Virus record (IMG/VR): IMGVR_UViG_3300028837_000165
Coordinates: 1-30,846 of that record
Direction: 5' to 3' (one strand)
From: a virus
Length of the DNA stretch: 30,846 bases
The translations under genes were made by a program, and so were the position numbers. Below are positions 3 through 17,565 of this stretch, in pieces (positions within the stretch are counted from its first letter, which is position 1; each line of letters opens with the position of its first letter). Below the pieces are notes generated by a model that saw only the letters and a program-made list of their open reading frames with translations, did not search any database and had not been told where the DNA came from.

Positions 3-158
3 AACAAAAAAATACTTGTAGTCTACAGCTCCTATACTATTGGAGAATATATTAGAGGTACAGTTAAGAATAAAGGGTATGTGATTCCATTTATTAACTC
101 ACCTGCTATTAGTAACCTATTGAAGAACCATAACATACCAATGAAGGAGAACTTGTAA
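3..158 (+). CDS. C-terminal part of an unknown protein (5' end outside window)
   Basis: An open frame enters from the left edge and stops at the TAA that overlaps the next start codon (TAATG). The visible 51 residues include a beta-strand-like stretch (KKILVVYSS) and the segment GYVIPFINSPAISNLL. I do not recognise the family. The one-base overlap with the amidoligase gene suggests the same operon and translational coupling, so it may belong to the ligase cassette. The true start is not visible. Confidence 0.55.
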   Translation, partial: NKKILVVYSSYTIGEYIRGTVKNKGYVIPFINSPAISNLLKNHNIPMKENL

Positions 159-1168
159 TGTCCACTATAGCTAAATTCCATGGGAGTCCTCCTGGTGTTT
201 CATGGGAACAGCCAAAGGTATCACCATCATCTGTGGCTGCAATGAGTAACTTACACAACGAAGATACCTATGTTGGTGTTGAGATAGAGTTGGAAATGGT
301 TCCGCCCAGTCTGGGATCGGTGGTAGAAGCTAGCTCTTTGGGGAGTTTAGCAGAGTTAGTCAGCATGTATCCCACAGGCAGTAGTATGCCGATGGAGTTA
401 GCAGTATTCTTTAAACAATGGGATGTGGTACAGGATCATTCTCTTAGGGGAGATTCAGCAAAAGAATTCTTGTTTAAAGCACCATACAAAGGGGATGCGC
501 TGCGCTTAGCTCTGTATTCTGTTGGACATATCTTTGAATCAGCAGGAAAAACATCACTGTACAGTCCACGGTGTGGCACTCATGTCCATATAAATACAAT
601 GGATATGAATATAGAGGAGTACGCTATTCACCTGCTATTGTATCTGTTCATGGAACCAACTCTGCTAAGCTATTGTGGAGCTGATAGAAAGAATAGTATA
701 TACTGCGTTCCAGCTACAGGCTCTTCTGATATATTAGAAACAGTAGCTTCATTTTTTCATTGTGTGAATACTTGTGCATCTTTACCAGGGAGCGAGCAAT
801 CGCTAATGAATGGATACGAAACATTAATTAGTTCGTGGCCTAAGTATTGTGCTGTGAATATAGGTAAAGATAAGGGAGCACAGGGAACATTTGAATATCG
901 CTCACTCGAAACTACCACCAATACGGAAGCATTAATGGAATGGATAAACATCCTGTTAGATATTCGTAACTACGCTGCCGTACTACACATAGAAGGATTA
1001 TCTTTGGAACAAATAGCTGAATATATCATACAAAATCCAGAAGCAGCACTATGTAAGATAACATCTTTACTTGATTCTCATATCCATCAGCAGGATTTGG
1101 TAAAGGGGGCATCAGCAGTAGTTGGTGCTGTATACGGCAACAAGACAATCACTGCCTCACCTGTATAA
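158..1168 (+). CDS. Amidoligase (COOH-NH2 ligase, glutamine synthetase-like fold)
   Basis: 336 aa. Motifs seen fit the amidoligase family: GVEIELE at residues 40-46 (the metal/ATP-binding E-x-E), a D-x-S-L-R-G-D block near 93-99 followed by EFLF, CGTHVHIN at 139-146 (the family HVH signature), a K-Y-x-A-V-N strand at 229-234 and GTFEYRSLE at 243-251. Members of this family form amide or peptide bonds between a carboxylate and an amine using ATP. The start ATG has an AAGGAG ribosome site (144-149) and overlaps the upstream stop. It is followed by a glutamine amidotransferase and an ATP-grasp ligase, a grouping expected for a peptide or amide synthesis pathway. The substrate cannot be read from the sequence. 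The stop codon lies inside a 17-bp palindrome. Confidence 0.85.
   Translation: MSTIAKFHGSPPGVSWEQPKVSPSSVAAMSNLHNEDTYVGVEIELEMVPPSLGSVVEASSLGSLAELVSMYPTGSSMPMELAVFFKQWDVVQDHSLRGDSAKEFLFKAPYKGDALRLALYSVGHIFESAGKTSLYSPRCGTHVHINTMDMNIEEYAIHLLLYLFMEPTLLSYCGADRKNSIYCVPATGSSDILETVASFFHCVNTCASLPGSEQSLMNGYETLISSWPKYCAVNIGKDKGAQGTFEYRSLETTTNTEALMEWINILLDIRNYAAVLHIEGLSLEQIAEYIIQNPEAALCKITSLLDSHIHQQDLVKGASAVVGAVYGNKTITASPV
242..258. promoter_or_regulatory. 17-bp palindrome copy 1 (divergent, inside amidoligase gene)
   Basis: Matches the consensus TTGTGTAACTTACACAA at 15 of 17 positions. It lies within codons for the Met-Ser-Asn-Leu-His-Asn segment of the amidoligase, 84 nt into the gene. It is the least conserved of the five copies and may be chance, but the right half is perfect. 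Confidence 0.3.
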
Positions 1169-1177
1169 CTTACACAA
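1161..1177. promoter_or_regulatory. 17-bp palindrome copy 2, upstream of amidotransferase gene
   Basis: CTGTATAACTTACACAA, 15 of 17 to the consensus. It overlaps the amidoligase stop codon and ends directly at the AAAGGAG ribosome-binding site of the amidotransferase gene. Binding by a dimeric protein here could act as an operator; as RNA it would form a hairpin next to the ribosome site. Confidence 0.5.
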
Positions 1178-1188
1178 AGGAGACAACT

Positions 1189-2523
1189 ATGTGCGGAAAT
1201 GTAGCTTTAATATCTACGAATAAAACAACCACCGATTGGAAGAAACGAAGTGATTGGCTCAGGGCAGCTATTATAGCTGATACAATTAGGGGTGCTGATG
1301 GTACTGGTCTAGCATTCGTACCTTGGGATGATCTGGGGGCTCCTGATTACTTAAAGCAGGCAGTGCCTGGACCAACCTTCTTGGAGAATCGAAGGGTCGG
1401 TAGTATCTTAACAAATGTTGATAAGTATGCTGTATTAATGGGGCATAATCGTGCAGCTACTAAGGGTGGTGTGAGTACTAAATCATCCCATCCATTTGCC
1501 CATAAGCACATAACTCTGTGCCATAATGGGACGTTAACTGCTACGTCTGGACTTGATCTATCCTTTGATGTGGATAGTGAGGCTATCTGCCATGCTTTTG
1601 CGGAGAAAGGAGCAGGGGAAGTAATAGAAACTCTGAAAGGAGCCTACGCCTTACAGTGGTATGATGCTAAGGAAAAGACGTACAACATAGCACGCAATGA
1701 AGATCGTCCATTAGCTTTTGCCTTTACTCCTAAAGGTGAGTTTGCTTTTGTGGCTAGTGAGGCATGGATGATACGCGAGCTGACGTATAAGTATGATATT
1801 ACTTTATCTAAGGATGGGGTGTGGTCTCTTAACCCTGGACATATAATTACTTTTGCGGTGGATGATCCAAAGAAGAAGGATCTAAGTAAGTTTACATCCA
1901 AAGCATTTACACCATACGTTACTCCTACTTATACATCTTCATATGGAGGTGGAAGGAATAATGGAAATTTTACCAAGGCTACTGATTCATCTAATGGCTC
2001 AGTAGATCCGACTACTACTATCAACAAATTGTCCGCTAAGCGAAGGGAATTATATAGGAAGAAGCTAGATAAAATTGGGCTAGTTTTAGGGGAACTTATT
2101 GAAATAACTGATGTTTCATTCCATCCCTATAGTGGGCCACATACCCCCAAAATTGGGGAGTTTGGTAAGGTAGAAGGATTATACGAGCTTGAAAATAATA
2201 CTTACGTACAAACACTATGTTATAGTGTGCCCTATCGTGAGGAGTATTCAGATCTAAGTGCTGTATTTTATGGCACTGTTGTAGGAGCATCACAATCAGA
2301 CGGATCTGTGTATGTAACTGTTGAAGAACTGGAGCAGGACAGCGCTACATTTATGTACAAAGGGCCAAATGATTCTTGGGTAACTCTCCAAGAGTTAGAT
2401 AAGCTGTGTAAAGGGGGATGCTCAGCGTGTAAAGAGCCTATAGATGTGAGGGACAAGGGAGAATGGGTTGATTGGGTAGGTGAGTTGCCTGTGTGTACTA
2501 ACTGTTGGGGTGGAGGTTGTTAA
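1189..2523 (+). CDS. Class II glutamine amidotransferase (Ntn-hydrolase) with C-terminal Cys-rich tail
   Basis: 444 aa. It begins Met-Cys-Gly, with Cys2 as the catalytic N-terminal nucleophile after Met removal. Further GATase II signatures are DTIRGADGTG (31-40), MGHNRAATKGG (84-94), CHNGTL (111-116) and the D-S-E of 129-131. These enzymes release ammonia from glutamine for use by a partner. The C-terminal part (about 240-444) has no obvious synthase domain; it ends in a probable zinc ribbon, C411-x2-C414 and C436-x2-C439, then Trp-Gly-Gly-Gly-Cys. The ribosome site AAAGGAG sits 7 nt before the ATG. With amidoligase upstream and ATP-grasp 1 nt downstream, it probably supplies ammonia, or trims glutamine, in the cassette. 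An asparagine-synthetase-like enzyme is unlikely because no ATP-pyrophosphatase domain is seen. Confidence 0.88.
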   Translation: MCGNVALISTNKTTTDWKKRSDWLRAAIIADTIRGADGTGLAFVPWDDLGAPDYLKQAVPGPTFLENRRVGSILTNVDKYAVLMGHNRAATKGGVSTKSSHPFAHKHITLCHNGTLTATSGLDLSFDVDSEAICHAFAEKGAGEVIETLKGAYALQWYDAKEKTYNIARNEDRPLAFAFTPKGEFAFVASEAWMIRELTYKYDITLSKDGVWSLNPGHIITFAVDDPKKKDLSKFTSKAFTPYVTPTYTSSYGGGRNNGNFTKATDSSNGSVDPTTTINKLSAKRRELYRKKLDKIGLVLGELIEITDVSFHPYSGPHTPKIGEFGKVEGLYELENNTYVQTLCYSVPYREEYSDLSAVFYGTVVGASQSDGSVYVTVEELEQDSATFMYKGPNDSWVTLQELDKLCKGGCSACKEPIDVRDKGEWVDWVGELPVCTNCWGGGC

Positions 2524-2524
2524 G

Positions 2525-3439
2525 ATGAGTAATATTAGTAAATACGTATTATGTGTTGATAAGAAAAAGTCAGTTAACGCCAAAGCTCTAGCAGATAAAC
2601 TTGATGCACAGCTATTGGTTGCTGGTAGTTTTCCTAAGAAGAAAATCAAGGAACGACCGCTAATTATAAACTATGGAAGGACAGCAGTTCCGATATGGTA
2701 TGATTCCGTATTTGAGAAAGATGGGGTATTTATTAATAAACCATCAAAGGTGGATATTTGTGTGAACAAGGAAAAACTAGCTGATCCCCTTCTTGGTATG
2801 GGTATAGATGTAGTTAAGTATAGCACAGAAGTAACTCCTTGGAAGGAGCACATTCTGTCAAATAATGGAACCTTTATTGTTGCTCGTTCTACACTTACTG
2901 GCTTTGGTGGAAAGGGAATATCTATAATCAAAGACCAGCAGGAACTTCAGGAGTACAAAGGAAAAGAAGGATATTACTTTAGTTTGTATTATGAGAAGAC
3001 ACACGAATATAGAGTACACGTAGCGTTTGGTAAGGCTATCGGTATGGTACAGAAAAAGAGGATGGGTAAATCTAAGCTGCAAAAGAATGGTCTAGATAAA
3101 GCAGATCCTTATATTAGAAGCCATAGTAGAGGGTGGGTATTCGCCTATAACAATTTGTATGGTAATGCTCATGAAAGAACAACGATTAAAAATTTATGTA
3201 TTAAAGCAGTAGAGGCTGTGGGATTAGATTTTGGGGCAGTAGATGTAATGACAATTTTCGATGAGGATAAGGAGCTTCATTCTATTAAAATATGTGAGAT
3301 AAATACAGCACCTGGGCTGGACGCTACACCAACAATGGAGTCATACATAGAGGCTATAAATAGTTATACAGAAGATTTAGAAATCTTCTGGAAAAACAAA
3401 CTGTTTGATATTCCTGGCAGTGAATTACTTATAAACTAA
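2525..3439 (+). CDS. ATP-grasp ligase (carboxylate-amine ligase type)
   Basis: 304 aa from the ATG at 2525, which has a GGAGG site 9 nt upstream and follows the amidotransferase stop by one base; an in-frame GTG/TTG extension to 2480 is unlikely. ATP-grasp features: a glycine-rich loop TGFGGKGIS (125-133), EYRVHV (161-166), D240 in a beta strand, and CEINTAPGLD (257-266), where the E and N are typical magnesium ligands of RimK/D-Ala-D-Ala-ligase-like folds. The family activates a carboxylate as acyl phosphate and joins it to an amine or thiol. It is the third enzyme of the cassette. Whether it acts on a free amino acid, a peptide tag or a phage protein cannot be seen. Confidence 0.87.
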   Translation: MSNISKYVLCVDKKKSVNAKALADKLDAQLLVAGSFPKKKIKERPLIINYGRTAVPIWYDSVFEKDGVFINKPSKVDICVNKEKLADPLLGMGIDVVKYSTEVTPWKEHILSNNGTFIVARSTLTGFGGKGISIIKDQQELQEYKGKEGYYFSLYYEKTHEYRVHVAFGKAIGMVQKKRMGKSKLQKNGLDKADPYIRSHSRGWVFAYNNLYGNAHERTTIKNLCIKAVEAVGLDFGAVDVMTIFDEDKELHSIKICEINTAPGLDATPTMESYIEAINSYTEDLEIFWKNKLFDIPGSELLIN

Positions 3440-12599: not shown

Positions 12600-13520
12600 A
12601 TGAGTAACATAGTACAGATAGATGGTGACTACCTTCTCCATGCGTACGCTTTTGTAGCGCAGCATACTTGGTATACTGTCGTTGCTAACGAAACTAATAA
12701 GTTTATAGCGCGGTGTGAGAGCTGGGAAGAGGTTAAGAATAATGGGTACAACAAAGCTAACCAAGTTCACATAGATAAAGATGTTGAGATTAAAGATTTC
12801 TCTGTAGCAAGGAAAGCACTTGATGGTGTGATGGGGGCTATTCTCAAAGAATGTGGTACTGGTAGGTGCAATCTATTCTTAACAGGAGAAGGTAACTTCC
12901 GCGAGGAAGTGGGAACTATGAGGCCGTATAAGTGGAACCGCAAAGAAGAGATGTGTGGGATCTACGGGCGTCAATACAATCCAAAGCCTCACTACTATCA
13001 ACAATTAAAACGGTATATGATCGAGGAGTGGGAAGCTACTACAGTCCACGGGATGGAAGCAGATGATGTTATGGTTATATCCCATCTGGAAGACATTGAA
13101 CATTCTATCATTGCTACTGTGGATAAGGACTTGAAACAGGTACATGGTCGCCACTTCGATATTGGGGATAAGTGGAAAAAGTTTACGATAAGTAAGAAGG
13201 ATGCCAAGTTTTTCCTTTACACACAGATACTTACTGGAGATAGCGTGGATGGTATCCCAGGTATCTTTAGGGTTGGAGAGGGTACGGCAAATAAAATCCT
13301 GAAAGGTGCTACTTGTGAGAAGGAGCTATTCTACAGGTGTGCGGAGGAATGGATCAAGTATGCTAAGAAGCTGGGTGGTACTGAGGAAGATGGGAAAGAT
13401 ATGATGATGGAAACCATCAAGCTAGTGTACATGCTGCGGGATAAGGATATAGAAGCCGAGCACGAGCAGTGGGAACAGAAGATGAGGAAATACGAGAGGA
13501 CCAAGAGAAATGAAGTATAG
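12600..13520 (+). CDS. 5'-3' exonuclease (FEN / PolI exonuclease family)
   Basis: 306 aa, ATG with AGGAGA upstream. Acidic metal-binding motifs are IDGDYLL (7-13), MEADDVM (152-158), TVDKDLKQV (173-181) and LTGDSVDGIPGI (211-222), followed by the helix-hairpin-helix-type GEGTANKIL (226-234). This matches T7 gp6/T5 D15-like nucleases, which remove RNA primers and degrade host DNA for nucleotide recycling. It overlaps the next gene by 11 nt. Assigned to replication by position after the polymerase and SSB-like genes. Confidence 0.87.
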   Translation: MSNIVQIDGDYLLHAYAFVAQHTWYTVVANETNKFIARCESWEEVKNNGYNKANQVHIDKDVEIKDFSVARKALDGVMGAILKECGTGRCNLFLTGEGNFREEVGTMRPYKWNRKEEMCGIYGRQYNPKPHYYQQLKRYMIEEWEATTVHGMEADDVMVISHLEDIEHSIIATVDKDLKQVHGRHFDIGDKWKKFTISKKDAKFFLYTQILTGDSVDGIPGIFRVGEGTANKILKGATCEKELFYRCAEEWIKYAKKLGGTEEDGKDMMMETIKLVYMLRDKDIEAEHEQWEQKMRKYERTKRNEV

Positions 13521-13743
13521 AAAGATAAAAGTGAATAGGGCACAGTGTAAGAAGTGTGGGGATATTATAACCTCATACAACCGTCATGATTTCTGTTTCT
13601 GTCAGTGTAGGGCTATCGCTGTAGATGGTGGTAATGACTACCTACGTAGGATAGGGACCGAGGATGATATTGTAGAACTTAGTGAGTTTGAAGATGTAGA
13701 AGAGTATGGGGAGAATGACGATTGCCACACAAAAGAAAGCTAA
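13510..13743 (+). CDS. Small Cys-rich protein of a widespread phage family
   Basis: 77 aa. The pattern CKKCGDIITSYNRHDFCFC followed by AVDGGNDYLRR looks like the DUF7695-type phage proteins, with paired cysteines likely binding zinc and a conserved D-G-G-x-x-Y-x-R-R. Acidic C-terminal tail. Molecular function of that family is not known to me. Overlaps the exonuclease gene by 11 nt. Confidence 0.7.
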   Translation: MKYRKIKVNRAQCKKCGDIITSYNRHDFCFCQCRAIAVDGGNDYLRRIGTEDDIVELSEFEDVEEYGENDDCHTKES

Positions 13744-14029
13744 TAGTAAAACTACCAATCCCATTACCAACTTGGAATCGGCTCTTAGCGATGGGGCCTT
13801 GGCAGAGGAAGAAATTACGCCATTTGATACACCTGTTAGTATCCATATTCATTCCGTCAGGAAACGAGAAGTTGACAGCGACGGAGTATCGGCGAAGAGT
13901 GCAATTGACGGACTCGTGTATGCCGGATTACTACAAGATGATTCGCCCAAGTTCGTCAAAGAAGTATCATACAGCCAAGAGAAAGGTAGCGTCGAAGAAA
14001 CGTACCTGATTATAGAGGAAGTAGAATGA
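13706..14029 (+). CDS. RusA-like Holliday-junction resolvase (C-terminal catalytic region)
   Basis: 107 aa from 13706 (or 104 from ATG 13715). Residues 43-106 match the RusA core: strand PVSIHIHSV, then REVDSDGVSAK (D57, D59, K63), SAIDGLVYAGLLQDDS (D67, D76, D77) and a closing strand. Asp and Lys at these spacings are the RusA catalytic residues that cut four-way junctions. The usual RusA N-terminus (Leu-Pro-x-Pro-Pro-Ser-x-Asn) is absent in this frame; a similar segment (LPIPLPTWNR) occurs in the overlapping frame at 13722. Either the gene is expressed by a -1 frameshift, or the two frames encode separate proteins. The ATG at 13706 has only a weak ribosome site. ATGA overlap with the next gene. 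Confidence 0.65.
   Translation: MGRMTIATQKKANSKTTNPITNLESALSDGALAEEEITPFDTPVSIHIHSVRKREVDSDGVSAKSAIDGLVYAGLLQDDSPKFVKEVSYSQEKGSVEETYLIIEEVE
13722..14009 (+). CDS. Overlapping-frame protein, LPIPLPTWNR family
   Basis: 95 aa from TTG at 13722, which has GGGGAG (13708-13713) at ideal spacing, a better start signal than the RusA-like frame it overlaps for nearly its whole length. N-terminus KLPIPLPTWNRLLAMGPWQR resembles the N-terminal strand of RusA-type proteins; the C-terminus is basic (MIRPSSSKKYHTAKRK). I have an impression of phage proteins with both of these segments, supporting a real product rather than a shadow. Alternative: it provides the N-terminus of a frameshifted RusA, although no canonical slippery heptamer is visible. 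Confidence 0.5.
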   Translation: MPHKRKLIVKLPIPLPTWNRLLAMGPWQRKKLRHLIHLLVSIFIPSGNEKLTATEYRRRVQLTDSCMPDYYKMIRPSSSKKYHTAKRKVASKKRT

Positions 14030-14235: not shown

Positions 14236-14471
14236 TGGATAATGAAGAGATACTCACAACCCGTGTTTGTTACCGTTGTGGTGCTGTTAATGGAGATTAT
14301 ACTTTTAACGACCTTTCTGCAATCCATCATTGCGGTGAGTGTGGTGAAGAGGGGGTTGTAACAGTACAACAGACTATGGATATTCTTAATCAATTGGTAC
14401 TTGATGGTACTATTGTGCTGGAAGAGATAAGTGAAATAGGATACGATATTTATGAAGATTCTTCATCTTGA
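14235..14471 (+). CDS. Small zinc-ribbon protein
   Basis: 78 aa from a GTG overlapping the previous TAG by one base, with AAGGGG upstream. CYRCG (12-16) and CGECG (33-37) form a likely zinc ribbon; the rest is acidic and helical. Overlaps the DEDD nuclease gene by 20 nt. Function unknown. Confidence 0.6.
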   Translation: MDNEEILTTRVCYRCGAVNGDYTFNDLSAIHHCGECGEEGVVTVQQTMDILNQLVLDGTIVLEEISEIGYDIYEDSSS

Positions 14472-15207
14472 TATAGAGACCAGCCCCAACACTGCTCACG
14501 TATGGGGGCTGTGGAACCAGAACGTTAGTATAGGCCAGTTGCGGGAGAGTAGCTACACCCTCTGCTGGGCTGCTAAATGGGACGGGGTTAAAGGGATTAT
14601 GTTTGACTCCCTGTACTATTCTTCTAACAAAAAAATGATGAAGGGACTCCATGCTCTGTTGGAAGAGGCTGATGTTGTAGTCCACTACAACGGTACTAAG
14701 TTTGATATACCAACAATCAACAAGGAGTTCTTACTGCTGGGGCTTGGCCCACCATCCCCCTACAAGCAGATAGATCTGCTGAGGACAGCAAGGAAGAAGT
14801 TTAAGTTTCCAAGTAACAAGCTGGACTACGTTGCCCAGGCCTTGGGGCTGGGAAAGAAGGTAACCCATGTGGGACATGAGCTATGGATCAAGTGTATGAA
14901 TAATGATCCTGCAGCATGGAAAATGATGGAGAAGTATAACAAAGGTGATGTAACTTTATTGGAGAAATTGTATGAGTGCCTTCTTCCCTGGATATCCAAT
15001 CATCCCAATTACGGTCTCTATTCTAGCCTTGATCGGCCTGTATGTACTAATTGCGGGTCACATAACCTCCACTCCAGAGGCTATAGTAGAACGAAGACTC
15101 AGATGTATCGCAGGTTCCGCTGTTCTAATTGTGGTACTTGGAGCCGTAGTAGGTTCACTGAAGTAGATCAAGAACTGAGGAACCGAATACTAGTACAGGA
15201 GGTCTAA
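14452..15207 (+). CDS. RNase H-fold (DEDD) 3'-5' exonuclease with C-terminal zinc ribbon
   Basis: 251 aa. DEDD-type motifs: HLDIETSP (D7, E9), VVHYNGTKFDIPTIN (76-90) and YNKGDVTLL (162-170, D166), the pattern of DnaQ/YprB-like ribonuclease-H-fold nucleases. After the nuclease domain come C198-x2-C201 and C224-x2-C227, a basic zinc ribbon that may bind nucleic acid. The phage polymerase already has its own proofreading domain, so this enzyme probably acts in DNA or RNA processing instead. It overlaps the small gene before it and is followed directly by the next gene. Confidence 0.75.
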   Translation: MKILHLDIETSPNTAHVWGLWNQNVSIGQLRESSYTLCWAAKWDGVKGIMFDSLYYSSNKKMMKGLHALLEEADVVVHYNGTKFDIPTINKEFLLLGLGPPSPYKQIDLLRTARKKFKFPSNKLDYVAQALGLGKKVTHVGHELWIKCMNNDPAAWKMMEKYNKGDVTLLEKLYECLLPWISNHPNYGLYSSLDRPVCTNCGSHNLHSRGYSRTKTQMYRRFRCSNCGTWSRSRFTEVDQELRNRILVQEV

Positions 15208-15402: not shown

Positions 15403-15574
15403 CTATCAACGATACATCCACACATCTAGGTACGCTAGGTGGTTAGAGAAGGAGAAACGACGGGAGACTTGGGAAGAAACAGTAGATAGATATATTACTT
15501 TTTTTGCTCAGAGAATAGAAGACTCTGATATGAAAGACGAAGATAAAAAAGAACTACTGGAGATTCTTGGGTGA
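15395..15574 (+). CDS. nrdJ: Class II ribonucleotide reductase, N-terminal piece (NrdJ-a)
   Basis: 59 aa. SRYARWLEKEKRRETWEETV (11-30) is the N-terminal signature of adenosylcobalamin-dependent ribonucleoside triphosphate reductases. The frame stops at TGA (15572-15574) after residues ILG, exactly where an endonuclease gene starts (GTGA). The missing continuation resumes at 15939. NrdJ makes deoxyribonucleotides for phage replication. As a separate piece it could still assemble with the others, as reported for the split class I enzyme of Aeromonas phage Aeh1. Confidence 0.8.
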   Translation: MDDYQRYIHTSRYARWLEKEKRRETWEETVDRYITFFAQRIEDSDMKDEDKKELLEILG

Positions 15575-15942
15575 GGCCAAAAAAAGCATACATGGACCAA
15601 GTTAGCCATGCTAAGGAGCGTAAGATTCCTTGGTTAATGTCTTACGCAGATTGGCTAGAGTTGTGGTTATTATCAGGTAAATGGTTTTCCAGGGGCAAGT
15701 GTAAGGAACAATATCAAATGTGTAGGAAAGGAGATACAGGAGCCTACTCTACACGTAATTGTTTTATAGGAACAGTTGCTGAAAACCAAAAAGACAGACA
15801 CAAAATTTCTGATGCAGAGACAAAAAATATTATAGAGGAGTACAAGTATACTATGGTTCCACAATGGAAGTTAGGGCAGAAATATAGCCTTAGCCAAAGT
15901 GCTATATCTAGAATCGTGAATAAAAAAAGGAGGGGGGTGTGA
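15571..15942 (+). CDS. Homing-endonuclease-like gene inserted in nrdJ
   Basis: 123 aa from a GTG sharing bases with the NrdJ-a stop (GTGA), with GGAG upstream. Residues 17-72 (IPWLMSYADW...SGKW, RGK, YQMCRKGDTGAY, N-C-F-I-G-T) resemble a phage endonuclease family often labelled HNH. The C-terminus (ISDAETKNIIEEYK, then a turn, then LSQSAISRIVNKKR) is a recombinase-type helix-turn-helix. The gene occupies the whole of the insert, so there is no room for an intron. It ends by overlapping the GTG of the next nrdJ piece by 4 nt. It is a free-standing mobile element splitting nrdJ. Confidence 0.7.
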   Translation: MRPKKAYMDQVSHAKERKIPWLMSYADWLELWLLSGKWFSRGKCKEQYQMCRKGDTGAYSTRNCFIGTVAENQKDRHKISDAETKNIIEEYKYTMVPQWKLGQKYSLSQSAISRIVNKKRRGV

Positions 15943-16163
15943 AATCTATTAGACAGTCAATTTTAAACTTAGAAACTTGTCCCTCTATGAGATGTTTGAT
16001 GACAGCGGGGAAGGCACTTGAACGTGATAATGTTGCAGGATATAATTGTTCTTATAGGGCTGTGGATGATATTCGTGCTTTTGACGAGATTATGTATATC
16101 TTGCTCTGCGGTACTGGGGTTGGTTTTAGCATTGAGCGCCAGTATATTAATTCACTAGTCTAA
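15939..16163 (+). CDS. nrdJ: Class II ribonucleotide reductase, second piece (NrdJ-b)
   Basis: 74 aa from a GTG overlapping the endonuclease stop, with AAGGAGG upstream. It carries PSMRCLMTAGKALERDN, YNCSY (the active-site cysteine of class II/I reductases, part of the redox pair) and ILLCGTGVGFSIERQYIN, all highly conserved in NrdJ. The N-terminal residues (SIRQSILNLE) continue directly from NrdJ-a, so little or nothing was lost at the endonuclease insertion. It stops at TAA (16161-16163), right where homology resumes in another frame. Confidence 0.75.
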   Translation: MKSIRQSILNLETCPSMRCLMTAGKALERDNVAGYNCSYRAVDDIRAFDEIMYILLCGTGVGFSIERQYINSLV

Positions 16164-16329
16164 GATTCGACCCGCAGGAAGCAGGCTCAAGACTTTTGGA
16201 GGACGTGCTTCTGGCCCGGAACCACTCATCGAACTATTTGAATTTACCGTTAACATCTTTAAAGAAGCTAGCGGTAGGCAACTTAGGAGTTTAGAATGTC
16301 ATGATCTTGTTTGTAAAATTGCTGATATT

Positions 16330-17565
16330 GTGGTTGTTGGTGGGGTGCGGCGTAGTGCCCTTATTAGTCTTAGCAACCTTACTGATGAGCGGCTCCGATC
16401 CGCTAAATCTGGTGCTTGGTGGACTGATAACCCTCAACGTGCTTTGGCAAATAATAGCGTGTGCTATACTGAGTGCCCAGACATTGGAATTTTCTTAAAA
16501 GAATGGATAAGCTTATATGAGTCAAAGTCAGGAGAAAGGGGAATCTTCAATAGAGAAGCTTCTAGACGAGTTGCGGAGCGAAACGGACGTAGAGATCCAG
16601 ATCACGATTTTGGAACAAATCCTTGCTCAGAAATCATCCTTCGCTCAAAACAATTTTGTAACCTTACGGAAGTTGTCGTACGACCTGAAGATACCTTGGA
16701 TGGTCTTAAGGAAAAAGTTAGGCTTGCAACGATACTTGGAACTCTCCAATCTAGTCTTACGGGGTTTAGATATCTAAGTAGTAAATGGAAGAAGAATACT
16801 GAAGAGGAAGCCCTCCTTGGAGTATCCCTCACAGGGATAATGGATCACGAAGTATTAAGTGGGCAGGGATGTATGTTAGGAGAAGGTTGGAAAGGATTGC
16901 CTGAAATTTTAGAAGAACTAAAGGAGGTGGCAATTGAAACGAATAAAGAATGGGCTGAAAGGCTTGGTATCAATCCTTCAAGCGCTATTACTTGTGTTAA
17001 GCCTAGTGGTACTGTCAGTCAATTGGTTGATTCTTCAAGTGGCATCCATCCTAGGTATTCCAGAACATATATACGGACAGTACGTACAGATAAGAAGGAC
17101 CCTCTTTACGAGTTCTTAAAGGACTGTGGAGTACCAGTGGAGGATGCTATAGGGAAGGAAGGGAGTACTGCGATATTCTCATTCCCCGTGAAAGCTCCAG
17201 AAGGGAGTATCTTTAGGGATGGGATGGGGGCTATTGAACAACTGGAGCTATGGAAAATATATGCAACGTACTGGTGTGAGCATAAGCCTTCTATTACTGT
17301 GTACGTTAGGGAGCATGAATGGTTGGAGGTAGGTGCTTGGGTATACAGGAATTTTGATATCTGCTCTGGGATTAGTTTCCTTCCTCATACTGACCATATA
17401 TACAAGCAGGCTCCTTACCAGGAGATTACAGAAGAAGAGTATAATGAGTTAGTTAAGGATTTTCCAGAGATTATCTGGGAAGACTTTGATACGTATGAGT
17501 CAGAGGATAATACTACCTCAACTCAGGAGTTAGCGTGTACCGCAGGTGGGTGCGATATTATTTAA
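16330..17565 (+). CDS. nrdJ: Class II ribonucleotide reductase, C-terminal piece (NrdJ-c), possibly broken
   Basis: 411 aa from the first in-frame start (GTG 16330). NrdJ homology runs in this frame from 16159 (S-K-I-R-P-A-G-S, then FGGRASGPEPL), before any start codon. The catalytic loop GTNPCSEIILR (C99, E101) and QFCNLTEV (C110) are intact, as is the C-terminal C403-x4-C408 pair used for reduction. Compared with NrdJ proteins as I remember them, roughly 40-60 residues are absent between NrdJ-b and 16159, and the frame shifts by +1. No ribosome site precedes 16330. It may be a pseudogene, a tolerated piece, or an assembly error. Confidence 0.75.
   Translation: MVVGGVRRSALISLSNLTDERLRSAKSGAWWTDNPQRALANNSVCYTECPDIGIFLKEWISLYESKSGERGIFNREASRRVAERNGRRDPDHDFGTNPCSEIILRSKQFCNLTEVVVRPEDTLDGLKEKVRLATILGTLQSSLTGFRYLSSKWKKNTEEEALLGVSLTGIMDHEVLSGQGCMLGEGWKGLPEILEELKEVAIETNKEWAERLGINPSSAITCVKPSGTVSQLVDSSSGIHPRYSRTYIRTVRTDKKDPLYEFLKDCGVPVEDAIGKEGSTAIFSFPVKAPEGSIFRDGMGAIEQLELWKIYATYWCEHKPSITVYVREHEWLEVGAWVYRNFDICSGISFLPHTDHIYKQAPYQEITEEEYNELVKDFPEIIWEDFDTYESEDNTTSTQELACTAGGCDII

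Follow-up and report, generated by a model that had tools for sequence, protein, structure and literature searches.

The window analysed here is the whole of IMG/VR record IMGVR_UViG_3300028837_000165, a stretch of 30,846 bases. Two nearly co-extensive reading frames occupy its forward strand at the positions given by an initial annotation of the DNA. Frame D runs from ATG 13706 to 14029 and encodes 107 aa; frame LPIP runs from TTG 13722 to 14009 and encodes 95 aa. The two overlap by 288 nt, with D in the -1 frame relative to LPIP. The features of the locus are the following.

13722 to 14009, plus strand: LPIP open reading frame (zero frame), which would be the N-terminal subunit if RusA is split here as proposed.
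13706 to 14029, plus strand: D open reading frame (-1 frame), the RusA catalytic half.
13829 to 14026, plus strand: conserved catalytic core of D (TPVSIHIHSVRKREVDSDGVSAKSAIDGLVYAGLLQDDSPK...), with an AF2 model of pLDDT 92.3 and Foldseek matches to RusA.
13928 to 13931, plus strand: dual-coding hot spot, where the D codon TTA lies over the near-invariant LPIP Tyr codon TAC.
13707 to 13713, plus strand: GGGGAG-type ribosome site of LPIP, 8 nt 5' of TTG 13722.
13814 to 13816, plus strand: ATT codon of frame D after a GAGAGGAAG-like purine run, a candidate internal start of D.

LPIP consists of a strand and loop, LPIPLPTWNRLLAM (LPIPLPTWNR), a helix, WQRKKLRHLIH, and a tail with a near-invariant Tyr, the residues MIRP and a K/R-rich end. 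The initial annotation credited this frame with the better ribosome site, 95 codons and a basic tail, and all three are present; in the relative L003 the ribosome site reads AAGGAG in place of GGGGAG. The first ~40 codons of D overlap the N-half of LPIP and are not RusA-like, and conservation starts near 13829. D carries the residues R-K-R-E-V-D-x-D-G-V-S-A-K...ID...DDS, so that the annotated catalytic frame does have the Asp/Lys pattern and, as was also claimed, has no RusA-like N-terminus in its own frame. Five relatives have an ATG where the window has the ATT of 13814 to 13816.

The setting is a phage replication block, with a 5'-3' exonuclease gene (12600-13520) and a small DUF7695 gene (13510-13743; Pfam match 2.6e-25) upstream, and an RNase-H-like exonuclease gene (14452-15207) downstream. 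From 13722 to 13743 no forward frame is closed, and each is plausibly coding: one holds the last codons of the DUF7695 gene, the others D and LPIP. Rfam detected no RNA family in the window.

We identified D by profile and structure comparison. It matched the RusA family PHROG_34 (8e-8 with the window D, 4e-13 with the family consensus) and aligned to a profile of single-chain phage RusAs with an hhalign probability of 99.1%. A Foldseek search with the D core model returned E. coli RusA chains as all of the top seven matches (TM up to 0.75, probability 1.00, best E 0.01). D16, K23, D27 and D38 (D-core numbering) are invariant in 48 loci and D18 is kept in at least 90%; we take these conserved residues to correspond to RusA D70/D72/K76/D91. 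Pfam gave no credible match for either D or LPIP, and the D profile matched none of the sequences of solved structures. By computation, then, D has the RusA fold and the RusA catalytic residues. As a single polypeptide it is not a RusA with an N-terminal strand and helix: both elements of the single-chain enzyme are missing from D, and the LPIP N-terminus lies in another frame or another gene. As a separate observation, PHROG_1532, an 80-aa phage family of unknown function, matches the family D core (13829-14026) with E ~2e-4, and may contain more RusA proteins made of the catalytic half only.

The initial annotation had proposed searching with the two translations separately and examining synonymous-site constraint across homologues. 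We scanned with LPIP, with LPIP in genomes, and with D alone; some queries were consensus or joined sequences and served only to find relatives. Each frame has homologues, and the same two-frame design is present at ~60 loci, which reduce to 49 non-redundant ones (<80% nucleotide identity, median pairwise identity 56%). The first scans, with either frame, found close contigs holding both frames. Among phages, tblastn with the LPIP query matched a single record, Caudoviricetes sp. vir555 (recorded host Methanomicrobiales), in which both frames are conserved, and the LPIP scan of genomes found one Kiritimatiellae contig. The scan with D alone, in which LPIP was not used, again found LPIP in the +1 frame at nearly every close D relative. 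A search of plasmids found no relatives.

The two-frame loci align almost gap-free. Counted from the Trp codon of PTWN, the LPIP stop lies 222-276 nt downstream in all non-redundant loci except L087 (360 nt), and the D stop 245-296 nt downstream. Every LPIP match among all loci has an adjoining D; the D matches that lack LPIP are single-chain RusAs, in which the +1 frame is mostly closed. Two adjacent frames that hold two halves of one enzyme are also what a sequencing or assembly indel in a single RusA gene would leave, and we considered this origin. We rejected it, giving it next to no credence: L002 and L003 are separately assembled, near-identical contigs with the same two frames, ~60 divergent loci keep both frames in the same relation, and no single-frame relative with an LPTWN N-terminus, the kind of homologue that the initial annotation named as refuting its reading, was found among phages, viral contigs and genomes.

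We then asked how selection acts on the overlap. The D protein was held fixed while its synonymous codons were shuffled, and the LPIP frame was scored for stops (49 loci x 35 codons). None was observed, against 97.5 ± 8.2 expected from each record's own codon usage and 68.6 ± 7.0 when usage was pooled over this region. The control, the third frame, had 130 stops against 121 expected and hence no depletion. The shuffles take no account of codon-pair bias, and the loci are related by descent, but the normal third frame argues that neither explains the result. The LPIP tail also scores far above what it would as a shadow of D (column score 0.64, versus -0.31 ± 0.04 expected). Its strongest columns are the Tyr and then a [LYF] position, with Thr and Val further upstream. 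The Tyr is present in 48/49 loci, the exception, L106, appearing indel-shifted, and it forces the overlapping D codon to NTA: that codon is ATA, TTA, CTA or GTA in 48/49 loci, and TTA in the window.

The reverse count, of D-frame stops within the LPIP N-half, gave 12 against 53.7 ± 6.4 (own usage) or 35.3 ± 4.9 (pooled usage); it is the softer of the two tests, since the third frame there is stop-enriched and the codon null fits less well. At ten loci D has a stop inside the LPIP N-half, upstream of the catalytic part, and the N-half of D is therefore dispensable. Across the overlap, purifying selection acts on both frames. Because LPIP stops are absent, the third frame is undepleted and the Tyr dictates the D codon, we conclude with near certainty that the locus is truly dual coding, with both frames under protein-level selection. 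Of the two schemes offered by the initial annotation, a -1 frameshift or dual coding, this bears out the one it favoured, to which we add that the products look like complementary RusA halves and not like RusA plus an unrelated protein.

One alternative is that D is the sole gene and the open LPIP frame a by-product of its codon bias. The basic end of LPIP is indeed in large part what the end of D spells in the +1 frame (EETII becoming KKR-stop). The absence of stops and the residue conservation lie far outside the synonymous shuffles, though, and the contigs L100 and L102 hold an LPIP that overlaps nothing of D; on these grounds we rejected the alternative as extremely improbable.

These non-overlapping relatives are natural controls. 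In L100 and L102 an SSB-like gene is immediately followed by LPIP (LTIEIPVPLPSWNFLLSANHWKRKKVRDLMHK...MDYMATIRPSKRNKQKLKDARSAAKKKP); an HNH gene comes next, and then D with an ATG of its own. LPIP and D do not overlap there. In L108 the genes are near-tandem: LPIP ends (...EELAEYDKAIRPKAKKKATRKKS) before the catalytic part, and D has its own ATG and a different frame relative to LPIP. Both proteins thus occur, by computation, as separate genes in relatives, and D stands beside every LPIP found. The tail motif Y...IRP...K is kept in L100/L102 and in L108, whose tails score 18.3 and 11.1 bits against the tail profile (0/2000 shuffles as high). Since the tail is kept without overlap, it is a feature of the protein, and in these relatives D is a separate polypeptide. 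A tree of D (72 columns) nests L100 in the overlapping group (90/79), with L108 close to the base of that group; the tree is poorly resolved and gives no order for overlap first versus separate genes first.

Two details of these contigs touch on the history of the overlap. At 3038-3175 of L108, the +1 frame within D scores 40 bits against the LPIP profile even though LPIP ends earlier, and may be left over from a time when the two genes overlapped. In L100, the HNH gene (2457-3005) lies exactly between the separated LPIP and D, which suggests a homing endonuclease insertion connected with the overlap being lost or absent.

The LPIP model (pLDDT 71) has helices at 12-17, 20-35 and 47-68, and a Foldseek search with it found no match. 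The LPIP head aligns in register, though weakly, with RusA residues 4-42 of one RusA set (hhalign P=0.02; 0.021), and a second, larger RusA set gave no hhalign match. When the L108 LPIP was joined to D, the pair was colinear with the RusA family PHROG_1682, residues 8-138 aligning to 29-142. We infer that LPIP is probably the RusA N-half from the order of the parts, their co-occurrence, a D that lacks an N-terminus, and this weak similarity. LPIP could instead be an independent protein (a regulator, an inhibitor or a DNA-binding cofactor) overprinted on a minimal, self-sufficient D-type RusA. The want of a convincing fold or family match for LPIP, and a basic tail that is in part a shadow cast by the acidic end of D, would fit such a protein. 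We think it unlikely, considering that D is without the N-terminal strand and helix of single-chain RusA, that LPIP always adjoins D and never accompanies a single-chain RusA, and that the L108 pair is colinear with a RusA family.

How D is initiated varies among the loci, and no consistent start codon was found. The D N-half is open at 39 loci; 35/39 offer a D start codon further upstream, usually close to that of LPIP. At the ten loci where D contains stops, a start codon of this upstream kind is always missing (0/10), and 9/10 have one after the stop; at 7/10 this later start has a Shine-Dalgarno-like match (3.5 expected, P=0.02). In L031 and L052 the D stop is followed by AAA-ATG behind GGAG, and in L098 AGGAGGT lies six bases 5' of a TTG. 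In the window (ATG 13706/13715) and the near-identical L003, a good Shine-Dalgarno is absent at the D starts. L003 has lost the D ATG, and L050 has no ATG, GTG or TTG for D whatsoever.

Under a programmed -1 frameshift, translation would begin in LPIP and the ribosome would shift into D at about codons 16-21, after the PTWN Trp, yielding a single-chain short RusA (~103 aa) besides LPIP. The better ribosome site on LPIP, the poor D start in the window and L003, and the RusA order of LPIP N-half followed by D core are all as this scheme would have it. The initial annotation saw no canonical slippery heptamer, and across the loci we find none enriched: X_XXY_YYZ in the zero frame occurs in 13/49 loci versus 11.5 expected, with no common position. 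The depletion of D stops counted above lies upstream of any common slip site, and a late slip needs none. L108 would require a shift in a different direction, the L100 genes are separate, and the constraint on the LPIP tail would be superfluous if ribosomes slipped. We therefore favour independent initiation of D over frameshifting, which has perhaps an outside chance of being the main route; a minority frameshift product may exist beside the separate proteins.

Our main reading, to which we assign a probability of roughly two in three, is that the locus encodes a split RusA-type junction endonuclease made of two polypeptides from overlapping genes. LPIP would be translated from its own start, TTG 13722, in the zero frame, and would supply RusA's N-terminal strand together with its first helix, as well as a basic, helical tail of DNA-binding-like character. 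D would be translated on its own, with a start a little 5' of LPIP in most relatives and inside LPIP in others, and would supply the strand-helix-strand-strand core with all catalytic Asp/Lys. The two would associate, with D presumably dimerising as in RusA, and the complex would cut branched DNA in replication or recombination; LPIP-D binding and the resolvase activity are predictions. We lean, a little less firmly, towards a broader picture: an enzyme whose two subunits are superimposed in two frames, each reading frame half RusA and half overprinted, persisting across diverse tailed viruses, with relatives in which the genes are separate. Carriers of the two frames include the Methanomicrobiales-associated archaeal virus record and the Kiritimatiellae bin.

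D shares its core fold (TM 0.75) and the pattern D-x-D...K...D...D with E. coli RusA (PDB 1Q8R, 2H8C/2H8E) and phage PHROG_34/PHROG_1682. RusA is one chain of ~120 aa, whereas at this locus the proposed N-half and the catalytic half occupy two open reading frames, superimposed in different frames. Tailed phages have partner proteins in overlapping same-strand frames in lambda-type Rz/Rz1, two membrane proteins of which one gene is nested in the other. The present partners likewise overlap, but they are apparent parts of one enzyme and the overlap is almost complete. Programmed -1 frameshift genes, such as those of phage tail assembly chaperones and dnaX, express a zero-frame product and the -1 frame from the same DNA. 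They differ from this locus, which has no slippery site, is constrained in both frames across the overlap, and has its parts separate in relatives. Recoding has been reviewed (PMC5009743), as have overlapping viral genes (PMC8227390). In overprinted viral genes, as here, one stretch of DNA carries two constrained proteins. Overprinting is usually described as giving unrelated proteins; here the pair appears to be halves of one enzyme. In the open-access literature searched, no description of a two-frame RusA turned up.

DNA phages rarely show dual coding over a long same-strand stretch with strong evidence that selection acts on each protein. Building an enzyme from two frames that apparently specify complementary parts of a single nuclease would be highly unusual. 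The locus makes several ideas testable: one enzyme folded onto itself in a compact genome, two starts balancing the subunits, and the origin and dissolution of an overlap. Annotation of one frame only, as in vir555, where it is a 'hypothetical protein', conceals a resolvase in many viruses.

Elsewhere in the window, adjoining Amidoligase_2 and GATase_6 genes are followed by an open reading frame resembling an ATP-grasp enzyme, for which Pfam gave no match; together they form a possible phage peptide- or cell-wall-modifying cluster (158-3439). At 15571-17565, a small open reading frame resembling homing-endonuclease proteins precedes a ribonucleotide reductase frame (16330-17565) whose match covers just a portion of the barrel domain, with no N-terminal part seen; this is possibly an intron-split or truncated gene.
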